Notes under the pieces: generated by a model
What the model was told of the DNA's origin: nothing
Database searches by the model: none
The model's input: the letters and a program-made list of their open reading frames with translations, nothing else
Shown: in pieces, positions 3,833-59,588 of the stretch
How the letters are laid out: every line of letters starts with the position of its first letter
How positions within the stretch are numbered: the first letter of the stretch is position 1
From: an uncultured Prevotellaceae bacterium
GTDB lineage: Bacteria > Bacteroidota > Bacteroidia > Bacteroidales > Bacteroidaceae
Length of the DNA stretch: 64,000 nt
Reading direction: 5' to 3'
NCBI GenBank assembly: GCA_900319225.1
Contig: ONNV01000004.1
Location: forward strand, 62,001 to 126,000
Program-made: the position numbers and the translations under genes

Positions 3833-5098
<1,266 letters not shown>

Positions 5099-11973: not shown

Positions 11974-12040
11974 CGCAAAGGGGACGGTTCTGTTCGCGTA
12001 AGGGACGGTTCCGTTCGCGAACAGAACCGTCCCCTTTGCG
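11974..12040 (+). repeat. Dispersed inverted repeat, GGGACGGTTCT family, copy 1
   Basis: Arms 11974-11998 and 12016-12040 are perfect 25-bp reverse complements with core GGGGACGGTTCTG. The 17-nt loop holds a further GGGACGGTTC. It begins at the base after the trmB stop and ends 11 bp before the mrp start. Copies with the same core occur at 38668-38786, 48731-49018 and 59396-59496. Such repeats are of the REP/extragenic-palindrome type; no mobilising gene is in the window. Confidence 0.95.
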
Positions 12041-25698: not shown

Positions 25699-26757
25699 AT
25701 GAAACTTAAGATTGCTGTTTTGGCCGGTGATGGTATCGGCCCGGAGATAATGGAGCAGGGTGTGGCTGTTACAAGTGCCATTGCCCGCAAGTTCGGACAT
25801 GAGGTTGAGTACCACGAGGCTATATGCGGTGCTCATGCCATAGACCTGGTGGGTGACCCGTTCCCGGATGAGACTTTCCGCACCTGCATGGAGTGTGATG
25901 CGGTACTGTTTGCCGCCGTGGGTGACCCCAAGTATGATAATAACCCAACATCAAAGGTTCGTCCGGAGCAGGGCCTTCTGGGCATGCGTAAGAAACTGGG
26001 CCTCTACGCCAATATCCGTCCTATTGAGACTTTTGACTGTCTGATACATAAATCTCCCCTTAAGGATGAGATTGTTCGCGGTGCTGATTTCATCTGCATA
26101 CGTGAGCTTACGGGCGGCATGTATTTCGGCCCTAAAAAAGAGGGAACCGATGAGGCTTTTGATACGAATCTGTACTCCCGCGCTGAGGTGGAGCGTATTC
26201 TTCGCGTCGGATACAAGTATGCCATGGCACGTAAGAAACACCTTACCGTGGTTGACAAGGCTAATGTGCTGGCAAGCTCACGTCTGTGGCGTAACGTGGC
26301 AATGGAGGTGATGAAGGAGTATCCTGAGGTTACTACAGATTTCATGTTTGTGGATAACGCCTCCATGCGTATGATCCAGGAGCCTTGTTTCTTTGATGTT
26401 ATCGTTACCGAGAATACCTTTGGTGATATATTGACCGATGAGGCATCTTGCATATCGGGTTCTATGGGATTGCTGCCAAGTGCTTCTACTGGTGAGCATA
26501 CTCCTGTGTTTGAGCCGGTTCATGGTTCTTGGCCTCAGGGTAAGGGACTTAACATTGCAAATCCTTTGGCTCAGATTCTTAGTGCGGCTATGATGTTTGA
26601 ATACTTTAGCCTTAATGACGAGGGGGCTCTTATCCGCAAAGCCGTACAGGCATCAATTGACGCTAATGTACGTACTCCTGAGATTCAGGTTGCCGGCGGT
26701 GGGCAGTTTGGTACTCGTGAAGTTGGTCAGTGGATTGTTGATTATATACTGCGATAG
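25699..26757 (+). CDS. leuB: 3-isopropylmalate dehydrogenase
   Basis: 352 aa, NAD-dependent beta-decarboxylating dehydrogenase of the isocitrate/isopropylmalate family. GDGIGPEIM at the N-terminus, the [12 protein letters not shown] substrate loop, and [19 protein letters not shown] are conserved. It oxidises 3-isopropylmalate to 2-oxoisocaproate and, in the citramalate route, methylmalate to 2-oxobutyrate. Last gene of the attenuated operon, 12 bp after the LeuD fusion. Its last codons and stop are part of a 13-bp sequence that is repeated 10 bp further on, just before a palindromic element. Confidence 0.94.
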
Positions 26758-26783
26758 TCTTAATAAACAAACTGCGATAGTCT
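26748..26783 (+). repeat. 13-bp direct repeat spanning the leuB stop codon
   Basis: ACTGCGATAGTCT occurs at 26748-26760 (containing the leuB TAG stop) and again at 26771-26783, directly before compound palindrome A. The ten bases between are TAATAAACAA. It may be a target duplication or insertion scar. Confidence 0.85.
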
Positions 26784-26784
26784 A

Positions 26785-27034
26785 GGGAAACAGAGGGGTA
26801 TGGGTCCCAGGGACAATGCCCTCCCACAACAGATTGTATCTATTCCGAAACTTAGGAGTAAACTCCACGTTCCAGAATAGATACAATCTGTCGCGGGCCC
26901 CATTGTCCTCCGTCCAATGGGAGGACCTTCTTTTATTTTGCTTCGCAAAAAAGGCGCCCTCCGGTCGCGTCCTTCGGACTTGGTCTCGCGTGGGTGCGAG
27001 AGTCCCTGGGGCCCATACCCCTCTGTTTCGCTCG
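26785..27034 (+). repeat. Compound structured palindrome, copy A
   Basis: Outer stem: 26788-26814 with 27002-27028 (27 bp, one T·G mismatch). Inner stem: 26831-26845 with 26875-26889 (15 bp, perfect) around a 29-nt apical region holding the hairpin GGAGTAAACTCC. Conserved unpaired blocks are CAATGCCCTCCCACAAC before and GTCGCGGGCCCC after the inner stem, then hairpin TCTCGC/GCGAGA. Compared with copy B it carries about 70 extra bases with hairpins GTCCTCC/GGAGGAC and TTTTGC/GCAAAA. The right end reads CTCTGTTTCGCTCG as in copy B. It could be a structured RNA or a hairpin mobile element. Confidence 0.85.
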
Positions 27035-27131
27035 CTTAGCTGGGGGTATTATATTGAGAATCTGATATAATGAATACGCTCTCCTGTGTGTTAAAAACTG
27101 TTAATCGTAGTATCGGTAAAAATTTAGGTTA

Positions 27132-27164
27132 TATATTTGCGGTGTATTAGTGAATTAATACACC
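27132..27164 (+). promoter_or_regulatory. -7 box and adjacent 9-bp inverted repeat
   Basis: TATATTTG (27132-27139) is followed at once by GGTGTATTA (27141-27149) and its perfect reverse complement TAATACACC (27156-27164). The repeat covers the expected transcription start of the propeller lipoprotein gene, so it may be an operator or a 5'-UTR hairpin. The rest of 27035-27288 is AT-rich with no other feature seen. Confidence 0.55.
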
Positions 27165-27288
27165 GAATCATTCTTTTGTTTGTTGCAAAAAAGTTGAGTT
27201 TTTGTGAAAGGAATGGGCGGTTTTGGATACTAATTATATGTAATCTGAATTTTTCAGTTCTTTTTTGGTCTAACCTTTTATAATTATA

Positions 27289-28476
27289 ATGATGAAAAAA
27301 ATTGGATTTTTTGTTTGTGCTATGCTGGGGTTTGCCGGTTGTGCCGAAGTTGTTACCCAGGATGTTCCTTTTATTGATGATGCCGATGCCGTTGAGGTTG
27401 CCTTTGAGGATGTGGCTACTGATGTGAAGATTGTGCCTTTGATATCGGATGAACCTATCGGGGCTTGCCGTCGTATGGTTTGTTATGACAACGAGGTGCT
27501 GATGTCCGATAACAGCGGCGAGTATGTCTACTACTTTGTTGACGGAAAGCTTGTGTCTACGCTTCATGCAGTAGGACGTGGTCCCGGTGAGTATACCAGT
27601 GTTTCACATTTTACATACTCGCCCAAGAAGAAGGAGTTGTGGATTTCCACTGTGGGTGATCCGGACAACATTCTTAATCTGACAAATATGACGGTTATGA
27701 AATACTCTGTCCCTGATATGAAATATAAGGGCAAGATGAGTGTTGAGGGGCTGATTTCACATCTTTCATGTGTTGATGGGGATAAGATCCTGACTGTCGG
27801 CTCTCCTTTAAAGATTTCAAGTCTCACCGAGGAGTCTGTTGATACCTGCCGTATTAACCTTGTTGACTCTGAGAGCGGTGAGACTATCCGCAGGTTGTGT
27901 GACGTATCCTATTATGACTATCTGCAGAGCGATATCATGCAGGCTCCGGGTGAGAACATGAGCGTCAATGTCTGTGTGGGCGGCTATATCAACAAGATAT
28001 ACCATATTGAGGGAAACCGTACTCAGATGCCTTTTGCCTTTACATTCGGCGTAAAGAGTATTCCTGAAAAGTATTTTGACCTTGGTCAGCCTACCGCAAT
28101 GGCTCTTACGGGTATTTTACAATACTTTATGTCTGATGAGGCAAAGGATTGCCTGGAGGGTGGTTTCTTCCCGATCGTTGATGGTGACAGGTACTCTTTC
28201 TGGTATCACAAGGCTCTCTCTTCATATCGTGACCACTATTTCAGATATGAGAATGGTGATATCGTGAATTACTGCGGTTTCCGTGGCAAGGGTATGAATG
28301 CTCCTGTATTGCCCAAGAGCGTGGCCGGCAAAGGTTATGTAGCTATTATTGAGGGTGATCCGGAGTCTGTGTTTGATGACACAAAGGAGCGCAGCAAGTT
28401 CTCGGCGGATCTGGAGAATACCATGAAGACCCAGTACCTGAACAACCCCGTGCTAGTCTACTACAACATCAAGTAA
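27289..28476 (+). CDS. 6-bladed beta-propeller lipoprotein
   Basis: 395 aa (ATG 27289 or the next codon 27292). Lipoprotein signal with lipobox LGFAGCAE, Cys near residue 18. The sequence has the repeating hydrophobic-aromatic pattern of the Bacteroidetes 6-bladed propeller lipoprotein family: ICRRMVCYDNEVLMSDNS-like first blade, then HAVGRGPGEYTSVSHF, which is a family hallmark. Members are found in many copies in gut Bacteroidetes with unknown ligands; a surface or periplasmic binding role is likely. The gene stands alone between two same-orientation copies of the compound palindrome, and its stop codon lies in the left flank of copy B. Confidence 0.75.
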   Translation: MMKKIGFFVCAMLGFAGCAEVVTQDVPFIDDADAVEVAFEDVATDVKIVPLISDEPIGACRRMVCYDNEVLMSDNSGEYVYYFVDGKLVSTLHAVGRGPGEYTSVSHFTYSPKKKELWISTVGDPDNILNLTNMTVMKYSVPDMKYKGKMSVEGLISHLSCVDGDKILTVGSPLKISSLTEESVDTCRINLVDSESGETIRRLCDVSYYDYLQSDIMQAPGENMSVNVCVGGYINKIYHIEGNRTQMPFAFTFGVKSIPEKYFDLGQPTAMALTGILQYFMSDEAKDCLEGGFFPIVDGDRYSFWYHKALSSYRDHYFRYENGDIVNYCGFRGKGMNAPVLPKSVAGKGYVAIIEGDPESVFDDTKERSKFSADLENTMKTQYLNNPVLVYYNIK

Positions 28477-28680
28477 GACTTGAAGGGAAACAGAGAGTAG
28501 TGGGTCTCTAGGACAATGCCCTCCCACAACAAAAAGTAACGATTCCGAAACAAAGGAGTAAACTCCAAGTTCCAGAATCGTTACTTTTTGTCGCGGGCCC
28601 CTCCCACTAGTCTCGCGTGGGTGCGAGAGTCCTAGAGACCCACTACTCTCTGTTTCGCTCGTTCTTCAAGTCTTACTTGA
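28469..28680. repeat. 17-bp inverted repeat flanking palindrome B and containing both convergent stop codons
   Basis: TCAAGTAAGACTTGAAG at 28469-28485 is the exact reverse complement of 28664-28680. Each arm contains the TAA stop codon of one of the two convergent genes that abut the element. Confidence 0.9.
28485..28662 (+). repeat. Compound structured palindrome, copy B
   Basis: Outer stem: 28488-28514 with 28629-28655, 27 bp perfect. Inner stem: 28531-28545 with 28575-28589, 15 bp perfect, around a 29-nt apical region with GGAGTAAACTCC. It has the same conserved blocks as copy A (CAATGCCCTCCCACAAC, GTCGCGGGCCCC, TCTCGC/GCGAGA hairpin, right end CTCTGTTTCGCTCG). Stem sequences differ from copy A at 7 outer and 5 inner positions, each compensated on the opposite arm. 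It fills the gap between two convergent genes and could act as a terminator as well. Confidence 0.88.
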
Positions 28681-29200
28681 CTTTCCAGACGTCAAGGGTG
28701 ATGCCTCCACCGGCGCCGCCGAAACCGGGCTGGCACAGGAACAGGCACTCGTTCATCCAGGCATACTTGCTGTCCTTGGGAGCCTCAAACTTGGGGGCGC
28801 AACGGAAATACATGCCACCCTGGCCACCCATCTTGATGATACCGTTGTTGCGTACGTGGATGGTTACGCCGTCATCGGTACGGATGCAGTAGATAGCCTC
28901 AACTTCATTGCGGCCGTCAACAGCCAGCTGATAGTCTGCGCCGCCGGGCAGAACCTCACCCTTGATATCGGGACCCTCGAAAGTACCGCCGGTGATAGGG
29001 ATGATGGTGCGGGTACCCTTGCCGTTGTTGCCTGATGAGTATGCCTGCCCCAGGGTTACGTTAAGACGTACTACATACTCAAGCTCGGGAGCCTTGGGCT
29101 CGCCGTTCTGCTGCTGGGGTGCGCCGAATCCGAACTGTGCATAGGCTGTGATGCCTGCGAGCAGTGCAACTGCTGCTACTGCAAAAAGAATTTTCTTCAT
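28673..29200 (-). CDS. Secreted DUF3237-family protein
   Basis: 175 aa with signal peptide MKKILFAVAAVALLAGITAYAQ. A short Gly/Gln/Pro linker (FGFGAPQQQNGEPKAPE) precedes a DUF3237 beta-barrel domain, recognised by ITGGTFEGPDIKGEVLPGG, AIYCIRTDDGVTIHVRNNG and the aromatic C-terminal strand. The biochemical role of the family is unknown. A -7 box lies on the minus strand at 29241-29248. Its 3' end converges on the propeller lipoprotein gene with palindrome B in between. Confidence 0.75.
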   Translation of the reverse strand: MKKILFAVAAVALLAGITAYAQFGFGAPQQQNGEPKAPELEYVVRLNVTLGQAYSSGNNGKGTRTIIPITGGTFEGPDIKGEVLPGGADYQLAVDGRNEVEAIYCIRTDDGVTIHVRNNGIIKMGGQGGMYFRCAPKFEAPKDSKYAWMNECLFLCQPGFGGAGGGITLDVWKVK

Positions 29201-38651: not shown

Positions 38652-38667
38652 TAATTGGAGAGGGGGC

Positions 38668-38786
38668 CAAAGGGGACGGTTCTTTTTGGCTCCTTTTGAA
38701 ATTAGCTCATTAATGAACAAAATAGCGTCTGGATGTTATCCAGGCGCTATTTATTTTGAAGGAGCCAAAAAGAACCGTCCCCTTTG
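38668..38786. repeat. Dispersed inverted repeat, GGGACGGTTCT family, copy 2
   Basis: Arms 38668-38693 and 38761-38786 are perfect 26-bp reverse complements with core GGGGACGGTTCT. The loop contains a second hairpin, 38720-38733 with 38739-38752 (AAATAGCG/CGCTATTT plus CTGGA/TCCAG, one mismatch). It separates the convergent permease and LytTR genes and may serve as a terminator for both. Confidence 0.92.
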
Positions 38787-38802
38787 TGCCCCCTTTGTGC
38801 CT

Positions 38803-46113: not shown

Positions 46114-46203
46114 AATCTATAAGTTTAAAAAGTTACTGAATCCCGGCAGTAATGCAGGTGAGGCTGTCTAGAGCAGGCCTTACCGGCTTTTTTTATTTTG
46201 TCT

Positions 46204-46372
46204 TGCAGGTCTTCTGACTTACCCCGGTCTGTCCGCCTTCCCACCCCGTGGGGCAGTGGCATTTGCGGTATGGACATCCCTGTTTTGAGGGCTTACAGCA
46301 GCGGGTCTGTTCAGGACTTGCACCTGATTCCCTTTTGATCCTCGGCCCTGAACGGGCATCGGAACAAGACAA
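46204..46372 (-). promoter_or_regulatory. Cobalamin riboswitch
   Basis: Read on the minus strand the element has AAGGGAATCAGGTGCAAGTC, CTGCTGTAAG, the conserved box GCCACTG (plus-strand 46254-46260), GGGAAGGCGG and the 3' end AAGTCAGAAGACCTGC, the standard order of the B12 riboswitch. About 90 nt separate it from the DUF4465 start codon; GCCGG (plus 46186) and CCGGC (plus 46153) there can pair and form an expression platform. It should repress the four-gene uptake operon when adenosyl- or other cobalamins are abundant. Confidence 0.96.
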
Positions 46373-46375
46373 ACG

Positions 46376-46383
46376 CAAAAATA
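46376..46383 (-). promoter_or_regulatory. -7 box of the riboswitch operon
   Basis: TATTTTTG on the minus strand, directly upstream of the riboswitch, matches TAnnTTTG. Confidence 0.55.
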
Positions 46384-46417
46384 TGTATTTTTTTACAATG
46401 TGCTCTTTTCAAAGTAG

Positions 46418-46448: not shown

Positions 46449-48713
46449 ATGGAAGAGGCTAATCTTGTCAAGGACCTGGCGCTGATCCTTATATCGGCCG
46501 GGGCTTTTACCATAATATCCAGGGCGCTTAAGCAGCCGCTTATATTGGGGTATATCCTGGCCGGTTTCCTGGTGGGCCCGCATATGGGTCTGTTCCCCAC
46601 GGTATCCAGTACGGCCGATGTCAAGGAGTGGTCCGATATAGGTATCATATTCCTTCTGTTCGCCCTGGGACTTGAGTTCAGTTTCAAGAAACTGCTCAAG
46701 GTAGGCAGCAGTGCGCTTATTACGGCCATGACGCAGTGTGTAGGCATGTTCATACTGGGTTTTCTGGTGGGCGAGGCCTTAGGGTGGAGCAATATGGAGT
46801 CAATATTCCTGGGCGGTATGCTCTCCATGTCATCCACCACCATAATCATAAAGGCGTATGACGACCTGGGTATGAAGGAGCGTCCGTTCGCTCCGCTGGT
46901 TTTCGGTGCCCTGGTGTTTGAGGACCTGATTGCCGTGGTGCTGATGGTGCTGCTTTCAACAATGGCGGTATCAAATAAGTTTGCTGGCGGCGAGATGCTC
47001 ATGGGGCTTGGCAAGCTGGTGTTTTTCCTGATCCTGTGGTTCCTTGTGGGTATATATCTTATTCCCACGCTACTTAAGAAAGCTCATAAATACCTTAATG
47101 ATGAGATTCTGCTGCTGGTAAGCCTGGGCCTGTGTTTTGCCATGGTTACGCTGGCCAGCCTGGCCGGATTCTCCGAGGCTCTGGGTGCATTCGTGATGGG
47201 TTCCATTATGGCTGAGACTCTGGAGAGCGAGCATATCATGGAGCTTACAAAAGGCATCAAGGACCTGTTCGGTGCCATATTCTTTGTATCGGTAGGTATG
47301 ATGGTGGATCCTAATGTGATTGCAGAGCACTGGGGTACCATACTGGTACTGACCATAACGGTCATGGTGGGAATCCTGTTCTTCTCTACATCGGGAGCAA
47401 TAGTGGCAGGTCAAGGCCTGGACAATGCCGTGCATGCGGGATTCAGCCTGGCTCAACTGGGCGAGTTCTCATTCATCATAGCCGGTCTGGGCGTATCGCT
47501 GGGCGTGATGCGTGACTTTATCTATCCGGTGGTGATTACGGTATCGGTCATAACCACTTTTACTACACCTTATATGATAAAGGCGGGTACTCCGGCATAT
47601 CAGTATCTGCTCCGTAAACTGCCGTCCCAGTTTGTCCAGAAGATCAACTCATTCTCCAGTCAGGAACGTGTGAACAGTGCCGCCGCACAGAATGAGTGGA
47701 AACGTCTGCTTAAGGAACTGGGGCTCAGGGTGCTGCTTTACGGCGTAATCCTGATTGCGATAGACCTGGGCTCACATCTGTTCCTGGATAAGTTCCTGAA
47801 CAGCCGTCTGGACGGTCTCACGCCAATAGCACGCAACATAATAAGCGTGGTCATAACGCTTGTGGTAATGTCGCCGTTCCTGGTGGGCATCGCAATATCG
47901 GGCAATGACATAAACCGCTCATCGATAAAACTCATCAAGGTAAAGCAGGCCAATATCTGGCCGGTCATATCGCTGGCCCTGCTGCGTATCCTGCTGGCCA
48001 TGGGATTTGTGGTGAGCGTGATTGCCAGCCATTTCAACCTGGCGTTCTGGACCATACTGCTCATACTCGTGGCAGGTGTGGCGTTCTTTTTTATAGGACG
48101 CCGTTCAATCAGCAAGTTCACTATCGTCGAGGACCGTTTCATGGCCAACCTCAACGAGAAGGAGCAGCGCCAGCGCCGCATGACTCCCGTTACGTCATCG
48201 GTAAGCGACAAGATGTCACGCTATAACGTAAAGACCGATATGATAACCATATCGGCCGATTCACTCTACGCGGGCCAGAAACTTAAGGACCTGCCGTTCC
48301 GCCATAAGAGCGGCGTGAACATTGTAAAGATTATTCGTGGCAGCCGCAGCATCATGATTCCTACGGGCGACGAGATGATATTCCCTACTGACAAGCTGCT
48401 TGCAGTGGGTACCAAGGAACAGCTCACCGAGTTCCGCAAGGATATGGCCGAGAACGTGTACGTCCCTGACCAGACGGAATCCGATACCCTGGCTCCGCGT
48501 CAGTTTGATCTGGAATCCATAACCCTTAAGGCAGACTCATGGCTTACCGGCAAGACTCTGAGTGAGACCGATATGCGCTCATACGGCTGTATGGTGATAA
48601 GCGTGGTCAGTGACGGCCAGGTTACCACCAACCCCAAGCCCGATTATCGCTTCAAGGAAGGTGATGTGGTCTGGCTGGCAGGCGAAAAATCCGCCTGTGA
48701 GTGGTGGGCGTAA
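46449..48713 (+). CDS. CPA2-family monovalent cation:proton antiporter (KefB/Ybal-like) with RCK_C domains
   Basis: 754 aa. Residues 1 to about 390 form the 12-13 helix Na+/H+ exchanger fold (QPLILGYILAGFLVGPHMG, FALGLEFSFKKLLKVG, VFEDLIAVVLMV, and EALGAFVMGSIMAE). An additional block of about four helices follows (420-560), then two TrkA-C/RCK_C-type regulatory domains (about 600-680 and 690-754: QKLKDLPFRHKSGVNIVKII and GKTLSETDMRSYGCMVISVV). It exchanges K+ or Na+ for protons at the inner membrane. No RCK_N nucleotide-binding domain is visible. Monocistronic; a very long inverted repeat follows its stop. Confidence 0.83.
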   Translation: MEEANLVKDLALILISAGAFTIISRALKQPLILGYILAGFLVGPHMGLFPTVSSTADVKEWSDIGIIFLLFALGLEFSFKKLLKVGSSALITAMTQCVGMFILGFLVGEALGWSNMESIFLGGMLSMSSTTIIIKAYDDLGMKERPFAPLVFGALVFEDLIAVVLMVLLSTMAVSNKFAGGEMLMGLGKLVFFLILWFLVGIYLIPTLLKKAHKYLNDEILLLVSLGLCFAMVTLASLAGFSEALGAFVMGSIMAETLESEHIMELTKGIKDLFGAIFFVSVGMMVDPNVIAEHWGTILVLTITVMVGILFFSTSGAIVAGQGLDNAVHAGFSLAQLGEFSFIIAGLGVSLGVMRDFIYPVVITVSVITTFTTPYMIKAGTPAYQYLLRKLPSQFVQKINSFSSQERVNSAAAQNEWKRLLKELGLRVLLYGVILIAIDLGSHLFLDKFLNSRLDGLTPIARNIISVVITLVVMSPFLVGIAISGNDINRSSIKLIKVKQANIWPVISLALLRILLAMGFVVSVIASHFNLAFWTILLILVAGVAFFFIGRRSISKFTIVEDRFMANLNEKEQRQRRMTPVTSSVSDKMSRYNVKTDMITISADSLYAGQKLKDLPFRHKSGVNIVKIIRGSRSIMIPTGDEMIFPTDKLLAVGTKEQLTEFRKDMAENVYVPDQTESDTLAPRQFDLESITLKADSWLTGKTLSETDMRSYGCMVISVVSDGQVTTNPKPDYRFKEGDVVWLAGEKSACEWWA

Positions 48714-48730
48714 ACAGCCCGCAGGGGGCC

Positions 48731-49018
48731 AAAGGGGCACAAAGGGGACGGTTCTATCTGTGCCCTTCCTCCAAGAGAACTTTTGGGGTATCAGTATCTG
48801 AAACTACGCGCTTCGCGCTATCCCTCCCATCCCTAATAAAACGCTCTGAAAGGTATGAGTAAACTCCTACCTTCCAGAGCATTTTCTTAGGCACGGGCCC
48901 CTCCCGTTCACAAGCCCACGGGCGGCCATGGTTTCTGATACCGATACCCCAAAAGTTCTGAACACCTTGGAGTATTTTCACAAGGGCACAGATAGAACCG
49001 TCCCCTTTGTGCCCCTTT
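48731..49018. repeat. Dispersed inverted repeat, GGGACGGTTCT family, copy 3, with nested compound palindrome C
   Basis: Outer arms 48731-48767 and 48982-49018 are perfect 37-bp reverse complements with the core GGGGACGGTTCTATC. The 214-nt loop (48768-48981) is the third compound palindrome: stem around 48777-48804 with 48931-48958 (28 positions, two mismatches), the block ATCCCTCCCAT, an inner stem CTCTG/CAGAG around GGTATGAGTAAACTCCTACC, and the block GCACGGGCCCCTCCC. All are in the same order and orientation as copies A and B. It fills the convergent gap between the antiporter and NatB-like genes. Confidence 0.9.
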
Positions 49019-49021
49019 AAA

Positions 49022-50296
49022 TTACTTCATCTTAATCCACTGACCCAGGTCTTTCCAGGTGGGTTTCTTGCCGTGCATGAAGACTCCGATGCGGAATATG
49101 CGTGAGGCAAGCCAGATCAGTATGACGAATGATACGTAGAGCACTGCTAATGATACCACTATCTCCCATGTAGGTATTCCGGCAGGGATCCTGGCCATCA
49201 TTACCATGGGTGATGTGAACGGTATCATGGAGAACCAGAACGCAACGTCCGATCCCGGGTTCTTGATAACAGCCATAAGCACATAGATAGCTATGATAAT
49301 GGGCAGCATTATCACGGAGTTGAACTGCGCGGCATCCTGGGGCGTGTCAACGGCAGATCCGATAGCGGCGTACATGGATGCGTAGAAAAGGAATCCTCCT
49401 ATTATGTAGAGTATGGTGGTGATTACCAGAGTGCCGATGTAATGAACGTCGGCGATACTGCCCAGAAGAATCTCCGCGTTACCGCTGCTGGCTGCGATGG
49501 CAGGCAGGGCAAATGCTACAAGTAACATGATGATTCCGCCCCAGATGAGAATCTGCAGCATGGCAACCAGGGCAATTCCAAGCACCTTACCCATCATCAG
49601 TTCAAACGGCTTGCATGATGTGATGAGTACGTCAAGCACACGTGTCTGTTTCTCATCAATTACTGACTGGAGCACCATCTGGCCGTAAATTATGATGATC
49701 ATGTAGATGAAGAATGCTATGATGAATCCCAACGCTACCGATCCTCCGGTCGATGAGGATTTCATCTCCTGGTTCTGCTCATTCTTGAGCGTCTGGATGC
49801 CGGCGTGGACGTTTGCATCGGCCAGGATGCTGTTTATGTTTTCTACGTCATACCGGTTAAGGCGTTCTGTGCGTATTATGCCCTGGATACGCTCACGTAT
49901 GGCATCCTCAACGCTCAGTGATGAGGCTCCGTTGTTTATGAGTGTCAGGTTACCGGGGTTGTCAATGATGTCTTCACCTATCACCAGAATACCAAAGCAG
50001 TAAACCTCATACCCGAATTTCTGGCGTGCCTCCTCAACCGTGGTGTTCTCCGGCAGCAGCTGGAACTCCACCCTGCTGTCTGAGGGCAGCCTCTTGCCTA
50101 TGATCTGGCCGGGGGTGTTGTCTATCACTACAATCCTCTCCGTCTTGGCCTTGGAGTCAACCGCATTCATAAAGAATGTGGGGCCGATAAGGCTAAGGGC
50201 TATCAGTATGGGAATGAGTATCGTTACCAGAATGAATGATTTCTTGCGAACGCGTTCTAAGAACTCTCGCTCTACGATAAGACCTAATCTGTTCAT
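49022..50296 (-). CDS. ABC-2 transporter permease, NatB-like
   Basis: 424 aa. The N-terminus MNRLGLIVEREFLERVRKKS and first helix, a periplasmic domain of about 150 residues, and five or six C-terminal helices match NatB/YhaP-type permeases (QSVIDEKQTRVLDVLITSCK is the conserved cytoplasmic turn). With the ATPase gene 12 bp upstream it forms a two-component exporter, in some bacteria for Na+; substrate here is open. Confidence 0.83.
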   Translation of the reverse strand: MNRLGLIVEREFLERVRKKSFILVTILIPILIALSLIGPTFFMNAVDSKAKTERIVVIDNTPGQIIGKRLPSDSRVEFQLLPENTTVEEARQKFGYEVYCFGILVIGEDIIDNPGNLTLINNGASSLSVEDAIRERIQGIIRTERLNRYDVENINSILADANVHAGIQTLKNEQNQEMKSSSTGGSVALGFIIAFFIYMIIIIYGQMVLQSVIDEKQTRVLDVLITSCKPFELMMGKVLGIALVAMLQILIWGGIIMLLVAFALPAIAASSGNAEILLGSIADVHYIGTLVITTILYIIGGFLFYASMYAAIGSAVDTPQDAAQFNSVIMLPIIIAIYVLMAVIKNPGSDVAFWFSMIPFTSPMVMMARIPAGIPTWEIVVSLAVLYVSFVILIWLASRIFRIGVFMHGKKPTWKDLGQWIKMK

Positions 50297-59378: not shown

Positions 59379-59395
59379 CAAAAAGGGCTCAAAAA

Positions 59396-59496
59396 GGGGC
59401 ACAAAAGGGACGGTTCTATCTGTGCCCTTAAGAAAAGGTTGAAAATAGTTGATTCAAATCAAAAGGGCACAGATAGAACCGTCCCTTTTGTGCCCC
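59396..59496. repeat. Dispersed inverted repeat, GGGACGGTTCT family, copy 4
   Basis: Arms 59396-59429 and 59463-59496 are perfect 34-bp reverse complements. The arm sequence is almost the same as that of copy 3 (one base differs: AAAAGGG for AAAGGGG), but the loop is only 33 nt and AT-rich. Confidence 0.95.
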
Positions 59497-59588
59497 TATT
59501 GCCGGCTTCCTGACAAAATGAATACAAATATGTCCGGATGTTGCATATTTATGCTCAAACAGGGGCGGAAAATGCCGAATTCTGACGT

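Follow-up and report, generated by a model that had tools for sequence, protein, structure and literature searches.

MITEs are dispersed, non-autonomous repeats with inverted ends, and in REPs imperfect pairs make one strand the better folder. REPs are reported to prefer the gaps between convergent genes and often to lie within 20 bp of both gene ends (PMC3733652). For template switching between inverted repeats, homogenisation of the arms and inversion of the spacer are reported (PMC8604942, PMC8794818). Here we analyse a compound palindrome present in a 64,000-nt stretch of DNA from an uncultured Prevotellaceae bacterium (the window). The element forms a genus-restricted, multicopy palindrome family. 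It is probably mobile but non-autonomous, resembling REPs and MITEs, with a core that is fixed and strand-asymmetric and arms that homogenise each other.

The positions of copies A, B and C are given in Table 1. The original prediction assigned A and B a common architecture, and both were found at the expected places, folding far better on the plus strand than shuffled sequences (A, 26775-27050, -142.5 kcal/mol, z -9.8; B, 28465-28680, -122.5 kcal/mol, z -16.6). Comparison by eye also bore out the claim that 7 outer and 5 inner left-arm positions differ between the two copies and are matched on the opposite arm. The T·G in A, which had been taken for the sole mismatch, is present, but a G·G near the outer end is unmatched as well. 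Likewise, the proposed limits locate A and B correctly but are too narrow for B, whose arms resume outside them and continue through both stop codons. One loop holds 82 nt of small hairpins in A where B has 9 nt.

Table 1. Positions in the window of element copies A, B and C and of their parts
Feature	Position	Strand	Basis or remark
Copy A, full element	26785-27034	-	G000:C13:88798-89018, 142.8 bits with covariance model
A outer stem, left arm	26784-26814		inverted repeat I13, 94% complementary
A outer stem, right arm	27002-27032		inverted repeat I13
A inner stem, one arm	26823-26851		inverted repeat I15
A inner stem, other arm	26869-26897		inverted repeat I15
A-specific insert, small hairpins	26902-26983		comparison with B and other copies
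Copy B, full element	28485-28662	-	G000:C13:90498-90645, 173.1 bits with covariance model
B outer stem, left arm	28484-28514		inverted repeat I12, 97% complementary
B outer stem, right arm	28629-28659		inverted repeat I12
B inner stem, one arm, containing CCCACAAC and TTCCGAAAC	28523-28551		inverted repeat I16
B inner stem, other arm, containing GTTCCAGAA and GTCGCGGG	28569-28597		inverted repeat I16
B left arm, outward extension, TCAAGTAAGACTTGAAG: last codons and stop (TAA) of left gene	28469-28485		17-nt run common to both gene ends
B right arm, outward extension: complement of TCAAGTAAGACTTGAAG, with end and stop of right gene	28664-28680		17-nt run
Copy C, second subfamily	48776-48959	-	35.7 bits, E 2.4e-4 with covariance model; diverged

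Copy B is flanked by convergent genes (27289-28476, plus strand; 28673-29200, minus strand), as is copy C (46449-48713, plus strand; 49022-50296, minus strand), which is nested in an inverted pair of a different palindromic repeat (48731-48767 / 48982-49018). Copy A lies in a non-convergent setting, between a leuB-like gene (25699-26757, plus strand) and the plus-strand gene at 27289-28476. At the end of the leuB-like gene a 13-nt direct repeat, ACTGCGATAGTCT, occurs at 26748-26760 and 26771-26783, the second copy stopping where element A starts. The gene between A and B encodes a 395-aa DUF5128-type protein; in another genome (G003, locus L132) a single element stands between the leuB-like gene and the homologue of 28673-29200, and the DUF5128-type gene and the second element may have arrived jointly. 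The order A-gene-B also suggested an integron-like reading (gene plus attC), which was considered and set aside. Gene labels were assigned by eye except for alaS, helicase, DUF349, zinc dehydrogenase, LepA, Iso_dh (leuB-like), DUF5128 and DUF3237.

The element is mostly 150-250 nt long, with an outer stem of about 25-43 bp around the core. An alignment of 40 copies on the minus strand (A2) omitted 14 parsed entries, namely 12 copies with bulges, deletions or decay, copy A and a spurious entry. Its majority sequence starts TCTCGCACCCACGCGnGACYAGTGGGAGGGGCCCGCGAC and proceeds through a variable inner stem, TTCTGGAAC, an apical hairpin, GTTTCGGAA, the returning inner stem and GTTGTGGGAGGGCATT, all within an outer stem of at least 26 bp. 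The minus-strand core thus places a small hairpin, CCCAC..GTGGG, next to a long inner hairpin with four near-invariant G·U pairs (A2 pairs 62-132, 64-130, 82-112 and 84-110, G·U in 36-39 of 39 distinct rows), and the apparent conserved mismatches of the plus strand (CAAC/GTCG, TTCCGAAAC/GTTCCAGAA) are G·U pairs on the minus strand. Because these pairs become A·C mismatches on the plus strand, the minus strand folds better in all 54 parsed entries (53 copies and one spurious parse), with a mean advantage of 16 kcal/mol; the plus-strand fold proposed at first is real, but that strand is the poorer folder. A single-strand function, if any, is therefore likelier on the minus strand, which may have a role as RNA. 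As to replication-strand bias, the better-folding strand lies on the C-rich strand in 16 of 22 copies, a borderline excess among non-independent copies from which no conclusion is drawn. The inner hairpin is absent from two copies, L171 (G033) and L173 (G029); in L171 it was apparently lost by deletion between repeated GTGGGAGGG-like motifs, with the outer arms and the small hairpin left.

With B as blastn query, matches were found in 21 of 37 congeneric genomes. A covariance model made from 22 copies (R1) matched 23 of these genomes at E ≤ 0.01 and gave 61 strong matches (at least 56 bits) in 17 of them. In a family-wide sample of 399 genomes, searched with stricter filters, 17 matched, all from this genus, one of 30 sampled. 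The exact 18-base core pattern GGGCCCCTCCCACTRGTC occurred in 54 stretches of the genome collection, 48 of which carry titles from Bacteroidales, Bacteroidaceae or Prevotellaceae, with ruminant-gut names in many titles; in the other six (three Streptomyces, Demequina, Hebobacteria and RUG12186) the rest of the element is missing, and they were rejected. A second subfamily, to which copy C belongs, has the core CTCTGAAAGGCATGAGTAAACTCC and, in many copies, the tail GGGCGGCCATGG. The expectation that the element has no name in Rfam held, the only match in the window at gathering threshold being a cobalamin riboswitch elsewhere (46187-46384, minus strand, 102.8 bits). Searches of plasmid and phage collections returned zero element matches, an exact-pattern search of viral contigs returned none, and the titles and abstracts found among open-licence PMC papers do not describe the element. 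For the counts below, 54 entries were parsed (53 copies and a spurious second parse of L158), 7 of 60 loci being unparsed; L166 was left out as identical to L165 over the compared stretch, and orthologous copies were each counted separately.

Genomes with and without the element at the same locus were both found. In the gap between alaS and a helicase gene, 30 loci were read (36 genomes with alaS), of which 4 hold a full element, 1 a decayed one and 25 none. The corresponding numbers between the dehydrogenase and DUF349 genes were 6 full, 2 core-deleted and 20 none among 28 loci read (30 returned; 35 genomes matched). Element-free sites show overlapping or near-touching genes, ordinary terminators, other palindromes or different neighbours. 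On a tree of genes from these two loci (two genes, 26 genomes), presence is patchy, compatible with gain, loss or transfer. The element is dispersed, being present or absent at orthologous gaps, occurring at unlinked loci and leaving decayed and core-deleted copies. A clear direct target duplication was not seen, relatives' gaps being too diverged for base-by-base alignment; at the G009 site, the palindromic AATTAA is a candidate.

Candidate mobilisers were sought among Y1 transposases. None of the 12 loci examined, from 42 matches, carried the element core or GTGGGTGCGAG, and two isolated short end-motif matches were all that these loci contained of its ends. Of the 17 genomes with strong copies, 13 have a Y1 transposase, as do 10 of the 20 without, which is no clear separation, and the candidate was dropped. 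A possible autonomous copy was also rejected: the 4.6 kb between two half-elements (L033, G034; 1-130 and 4594-4860) consists, by eye, of chromosomal-looking genes, among which a transposase was not noticed. These half-elements have inverted flanks, total about 270 nt and reflect either an assembly fold-back or a real inversion. Another palindrome family, AGAACCGTCCCC / GGGGACGGTTCT, occurs as inverted pairs in the window (11974-12040, 38661-38796, 48727-49018 and 59392-59503), and its arms too show matched differences between copies. At 4 of the 12 Y1-transposase loci (L257, L258, L263 and L265) the gene lies between copies of this other repeat, GGGACGGTTC, which ties that family to a RAYT-like enzyme.

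Pairing in the arms is maintained while their sequence changes. Pairs changed on both sides number 37 of 64, against 28.3 in shuffles, and the corresponding cells 397 against 114; the covariation score is 0.437, compared with 0.124 in shuffles and at most 0.102 when slid. Such a signal is also expected from DNA template switching. Mean pairwise identity is 0.54 in the arms and 0.96-0.97 in the fixed core, so that the outer arms are the best paired variable part yet the least conserved in sequence. On the minus strand, 1002 of their 1040 cells (26 pairs in 40 copies) are Watson-Crick, the remainder being 17 G·U, 3 A·C and 18 other. Elsewhere in the analysis, seven extra-bulge copies (L160-L163, L165, L167 and L168) yielded no usable arm, and the arms of L157 and L158 are decayed. 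When copies sharing a locus were compared (33 pairs, not independent, with loci assigned by hand), 87 changes fell on both arms and were Watson-Crick in both copies, 4 fell on both arms without being so and 39 fell on one arm. Changes can affect a whole block, as at one locus where L139 and L142 have GGTATATCCTCTC and L144 has GGTTTTGTCTCTC. Counted once per locus and column, 39 columns have two Watson-Crick types differing on both sides and 24 include a non-Watson-Crick state. Since these 24 columns exist and all 11 differences at the lepA locus lie on one arm, homogenisation of the arms is not constant. A further 11 one-arm differences, between L151 and L155, stem from an alignment-shifting indel.

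Inner hairpins swap between loci independently of the arms. In nine pairs, drawn from different loci and genomes, the inner hairpins of the two copies are identical with outer identity down to 0.38, and, in reverse, three same-locus pairs have arms 0.81-0.90 alike and inner hairpins just 0.62-0.64.

The palindrome also reaches into genes. At a subset of loci an arm passes through both stop codons: L148 has GAGAAA, the stop TAG and tataaaaaaggggg on each side, and in L151 the arm runs through GAAA, the stop TAA and agaaatagggg. The longest run common to the two gene ends averages 8.1 nt over 22 entries, against 5.2 nt in permutations, whose maximum in 2000 was 7.05. Shared runs of at least 9 nt occur in 5 of 18 element gaps (3.1% of permuted pairs) and in 2 of 25 other gaps (1.5% of permuted pairs), and both of the latter sit at copies of another palindromic repeat. 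In the alaS/helicase gap of G031 and G025, an inverted repeat of the helicase's final codons follows the alaS stop, and a C/T difference in a helicase proline codon recurs, mirrored, in the non-coding repeat; G009 and G006 show the converse arrangement, a repeat of the alaS end lying behind the helicase. Coding sequence has no evident reason to pair across the element; if one arm was copied onto the other, the mirroring is explained. Within the same arms, the core has one orientation in G031 and the other in G025. Three dehydrogenase gaps (L230 in G002, L241 in G028 and L242 in G027) have inverted AATTGAGAATTGAAAATTGA-type heptad repeats at both ends, with the stop codons inside, and the mirroring of gene ends may be a general trait of the genus.

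The covariation pattern points to arm-to-arm DNA copying by template switching rather than to selection on RNA. In the mechanism that we favour for the mobile palindrome, the arms would stay matched because one templates the other during replication, through fold-back or strand-switch synthesis. Fold-back copying would transfer a single change or a whole block across the arms and could flip the spacer; it would also extend the palindrome outward until coding sequence that cannot be altered is met. We propose that the arms run through both stop codons at several loci because the palindrome grows outward to the coding sequence in this way. The strand-asymmetric core may be the single-stranded DNA target of a putative trans-acting enzyme that spreads it. 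The original prediction had placed selection on a folded RNA first and had named template switching and a hairpin-mobilised repeat as alternatives. The order is now reversed: the arms are the least conserved part though the best paired, mirroring enters coding sequence and the core can be inverted. Matched double and block changes, mirrored gene ends and the inverted core speak for template switching, and a family at unlinked loci with presence and absence at orthologous gaps for a mobilised repeat.

It is possible, though we would not expect it, that the mobile core brings no terminal repeats of its own, and that arms are built at the target by fold-back copying of the flanking gene's last codons and stop, the inner hairpin being a further module that moves between shells. 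If true, inverted repeats would here be a product of insertion on site and not something that the element carries in.

A structured RNA, either a 3'-UTR element or a small RNA of the minus strand, selected for its fold and with arms that vary since only pairing counts, is an unlikely account of the family. The strong covariation, the four near-invariant G·U pairs and the better folding of the minus strand would suit it, as would the excess of G·U over A·C among arm events (13 against 3, p 0.02; 8 against 2 without the badly aligned L151/L155 locus), which fits weak minus-strand selection or strand-biased mutation. However, G·U is rare in the arms and no commoner there than non-pairs, and the variable inner stem, expected to be the most important part of such an RNA, is unpaired in 39 of 440 cells, a higher share than the 21 of 1040 in the outer stem. 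An RNA would also have to accommodate a core whose orientation differs between two genomes at one locus, mirroring that extends into coding sequence, and the lack of the element in most relatives at the two loci read.

The positions of the copies raise the question of a bidirectional terminator or insulator for convergent genes that spread by its usefulness. At least 41 of the 53 copies lie between convergent genes; the count comes from a greedy ORF picker and is low, since L132, scored as non-convergent, is in fact convergent. The baseline is 55 of 318 adjacent gene pairs in 21 element-holding regions and 8 of 45 in the window. Where the element fills a whole convergent gap, no ordinary terminator was seen beside it by eye, and several element-free orthologous gaps have one; the element may therefore stop, or tolerate, convergent transcription. 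Nevertheless, we give a terminator little credence as the explanation of the family. When A and B were tested for intrinsic terminators (a hairpin directly followed by a T-run), one site was found within the A insert (26905-26926) and none on the outer stem, and the A-B region holds 3 such sites compared with a mean of 2.6 in shuffles. Some gaps in relatives measure -11 to 7 nt, which leaves no room for a terminator, copy A is not between convergent genes, and an invariant core would be superfluous in a simple terminator.

That the family is an ordinary MITE whose terminal inverted repeats are fixed and whose arms have diverged by point mutation is very improbable: one class of copies does have recurrent ends by eye (RGGGGAA on the left, TTCCGCTCRCTTRG or TTCCGTGCACCTRG on the right), but arms that are 54% identical between copies are nearly perfectly complementary, and unguided point mutation would have broken the pairing first.

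The family thus offers a natural case in which dozens of compensatory changes, of the sort that textbooks take as evidence for a folded RNA, were probably made by DNA replication, with the coding gene ends as an internal control. It cautions against relying on covariation statistics alone, by which palindromic DNA can be misnamed as RNA. The genus-wide multicopy set would make it possible to measure how fast arms are copied, spacers flip and palindromes grow. A palindrome family is also added in which inside and outside evolve separately, and a search for its mobilising enzyme found none.

With Rfam structured RNAs the element has covarying stems and a conserved core in common, though no match at gathering threshold. 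In placement and spread it is REP/MITE-like. As in REP/REPIN/BIME and RAYT-mobilised repeats (GTAG and CGTC super-families), it is a multicopy intergenic palindrome with a preference for convergent gaps. Unlike REPs and REPINs, it is a compound hairpin mostly 150-250 nt in length rather than 20-40 nt and has no invariant GTAG/CGTC end tag, its terminal arms being locus-specific and its ends variable between copies; unlike RAYT-mobilised REPs, it flanks no transposase at the 12 Y1 loci examined of 42 matches. Similar to MITEs, it is dispersed, non-autonomous, bounded by inverted ends and present or absent at orthologous sites. It differs from them in that its ends are not fixed, to judge by the arm identity between copies and the confinement of short end motifs, seen by eye, to one class, and in that the inverted repeat continues into the flanking gene ends at some loci. 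Its changes resemble template-switch (quasipalindrome) mutation, with patterns like the arm homogenisation, matched multi-base changes and spacer inversion reported for that process. The reported events took place in existing inverted repeats of yeast genes and in RNA genes (PMC8794818, PMC8604942), whereas here the same process would shape an entire repeat family and mirror the ends of genes.
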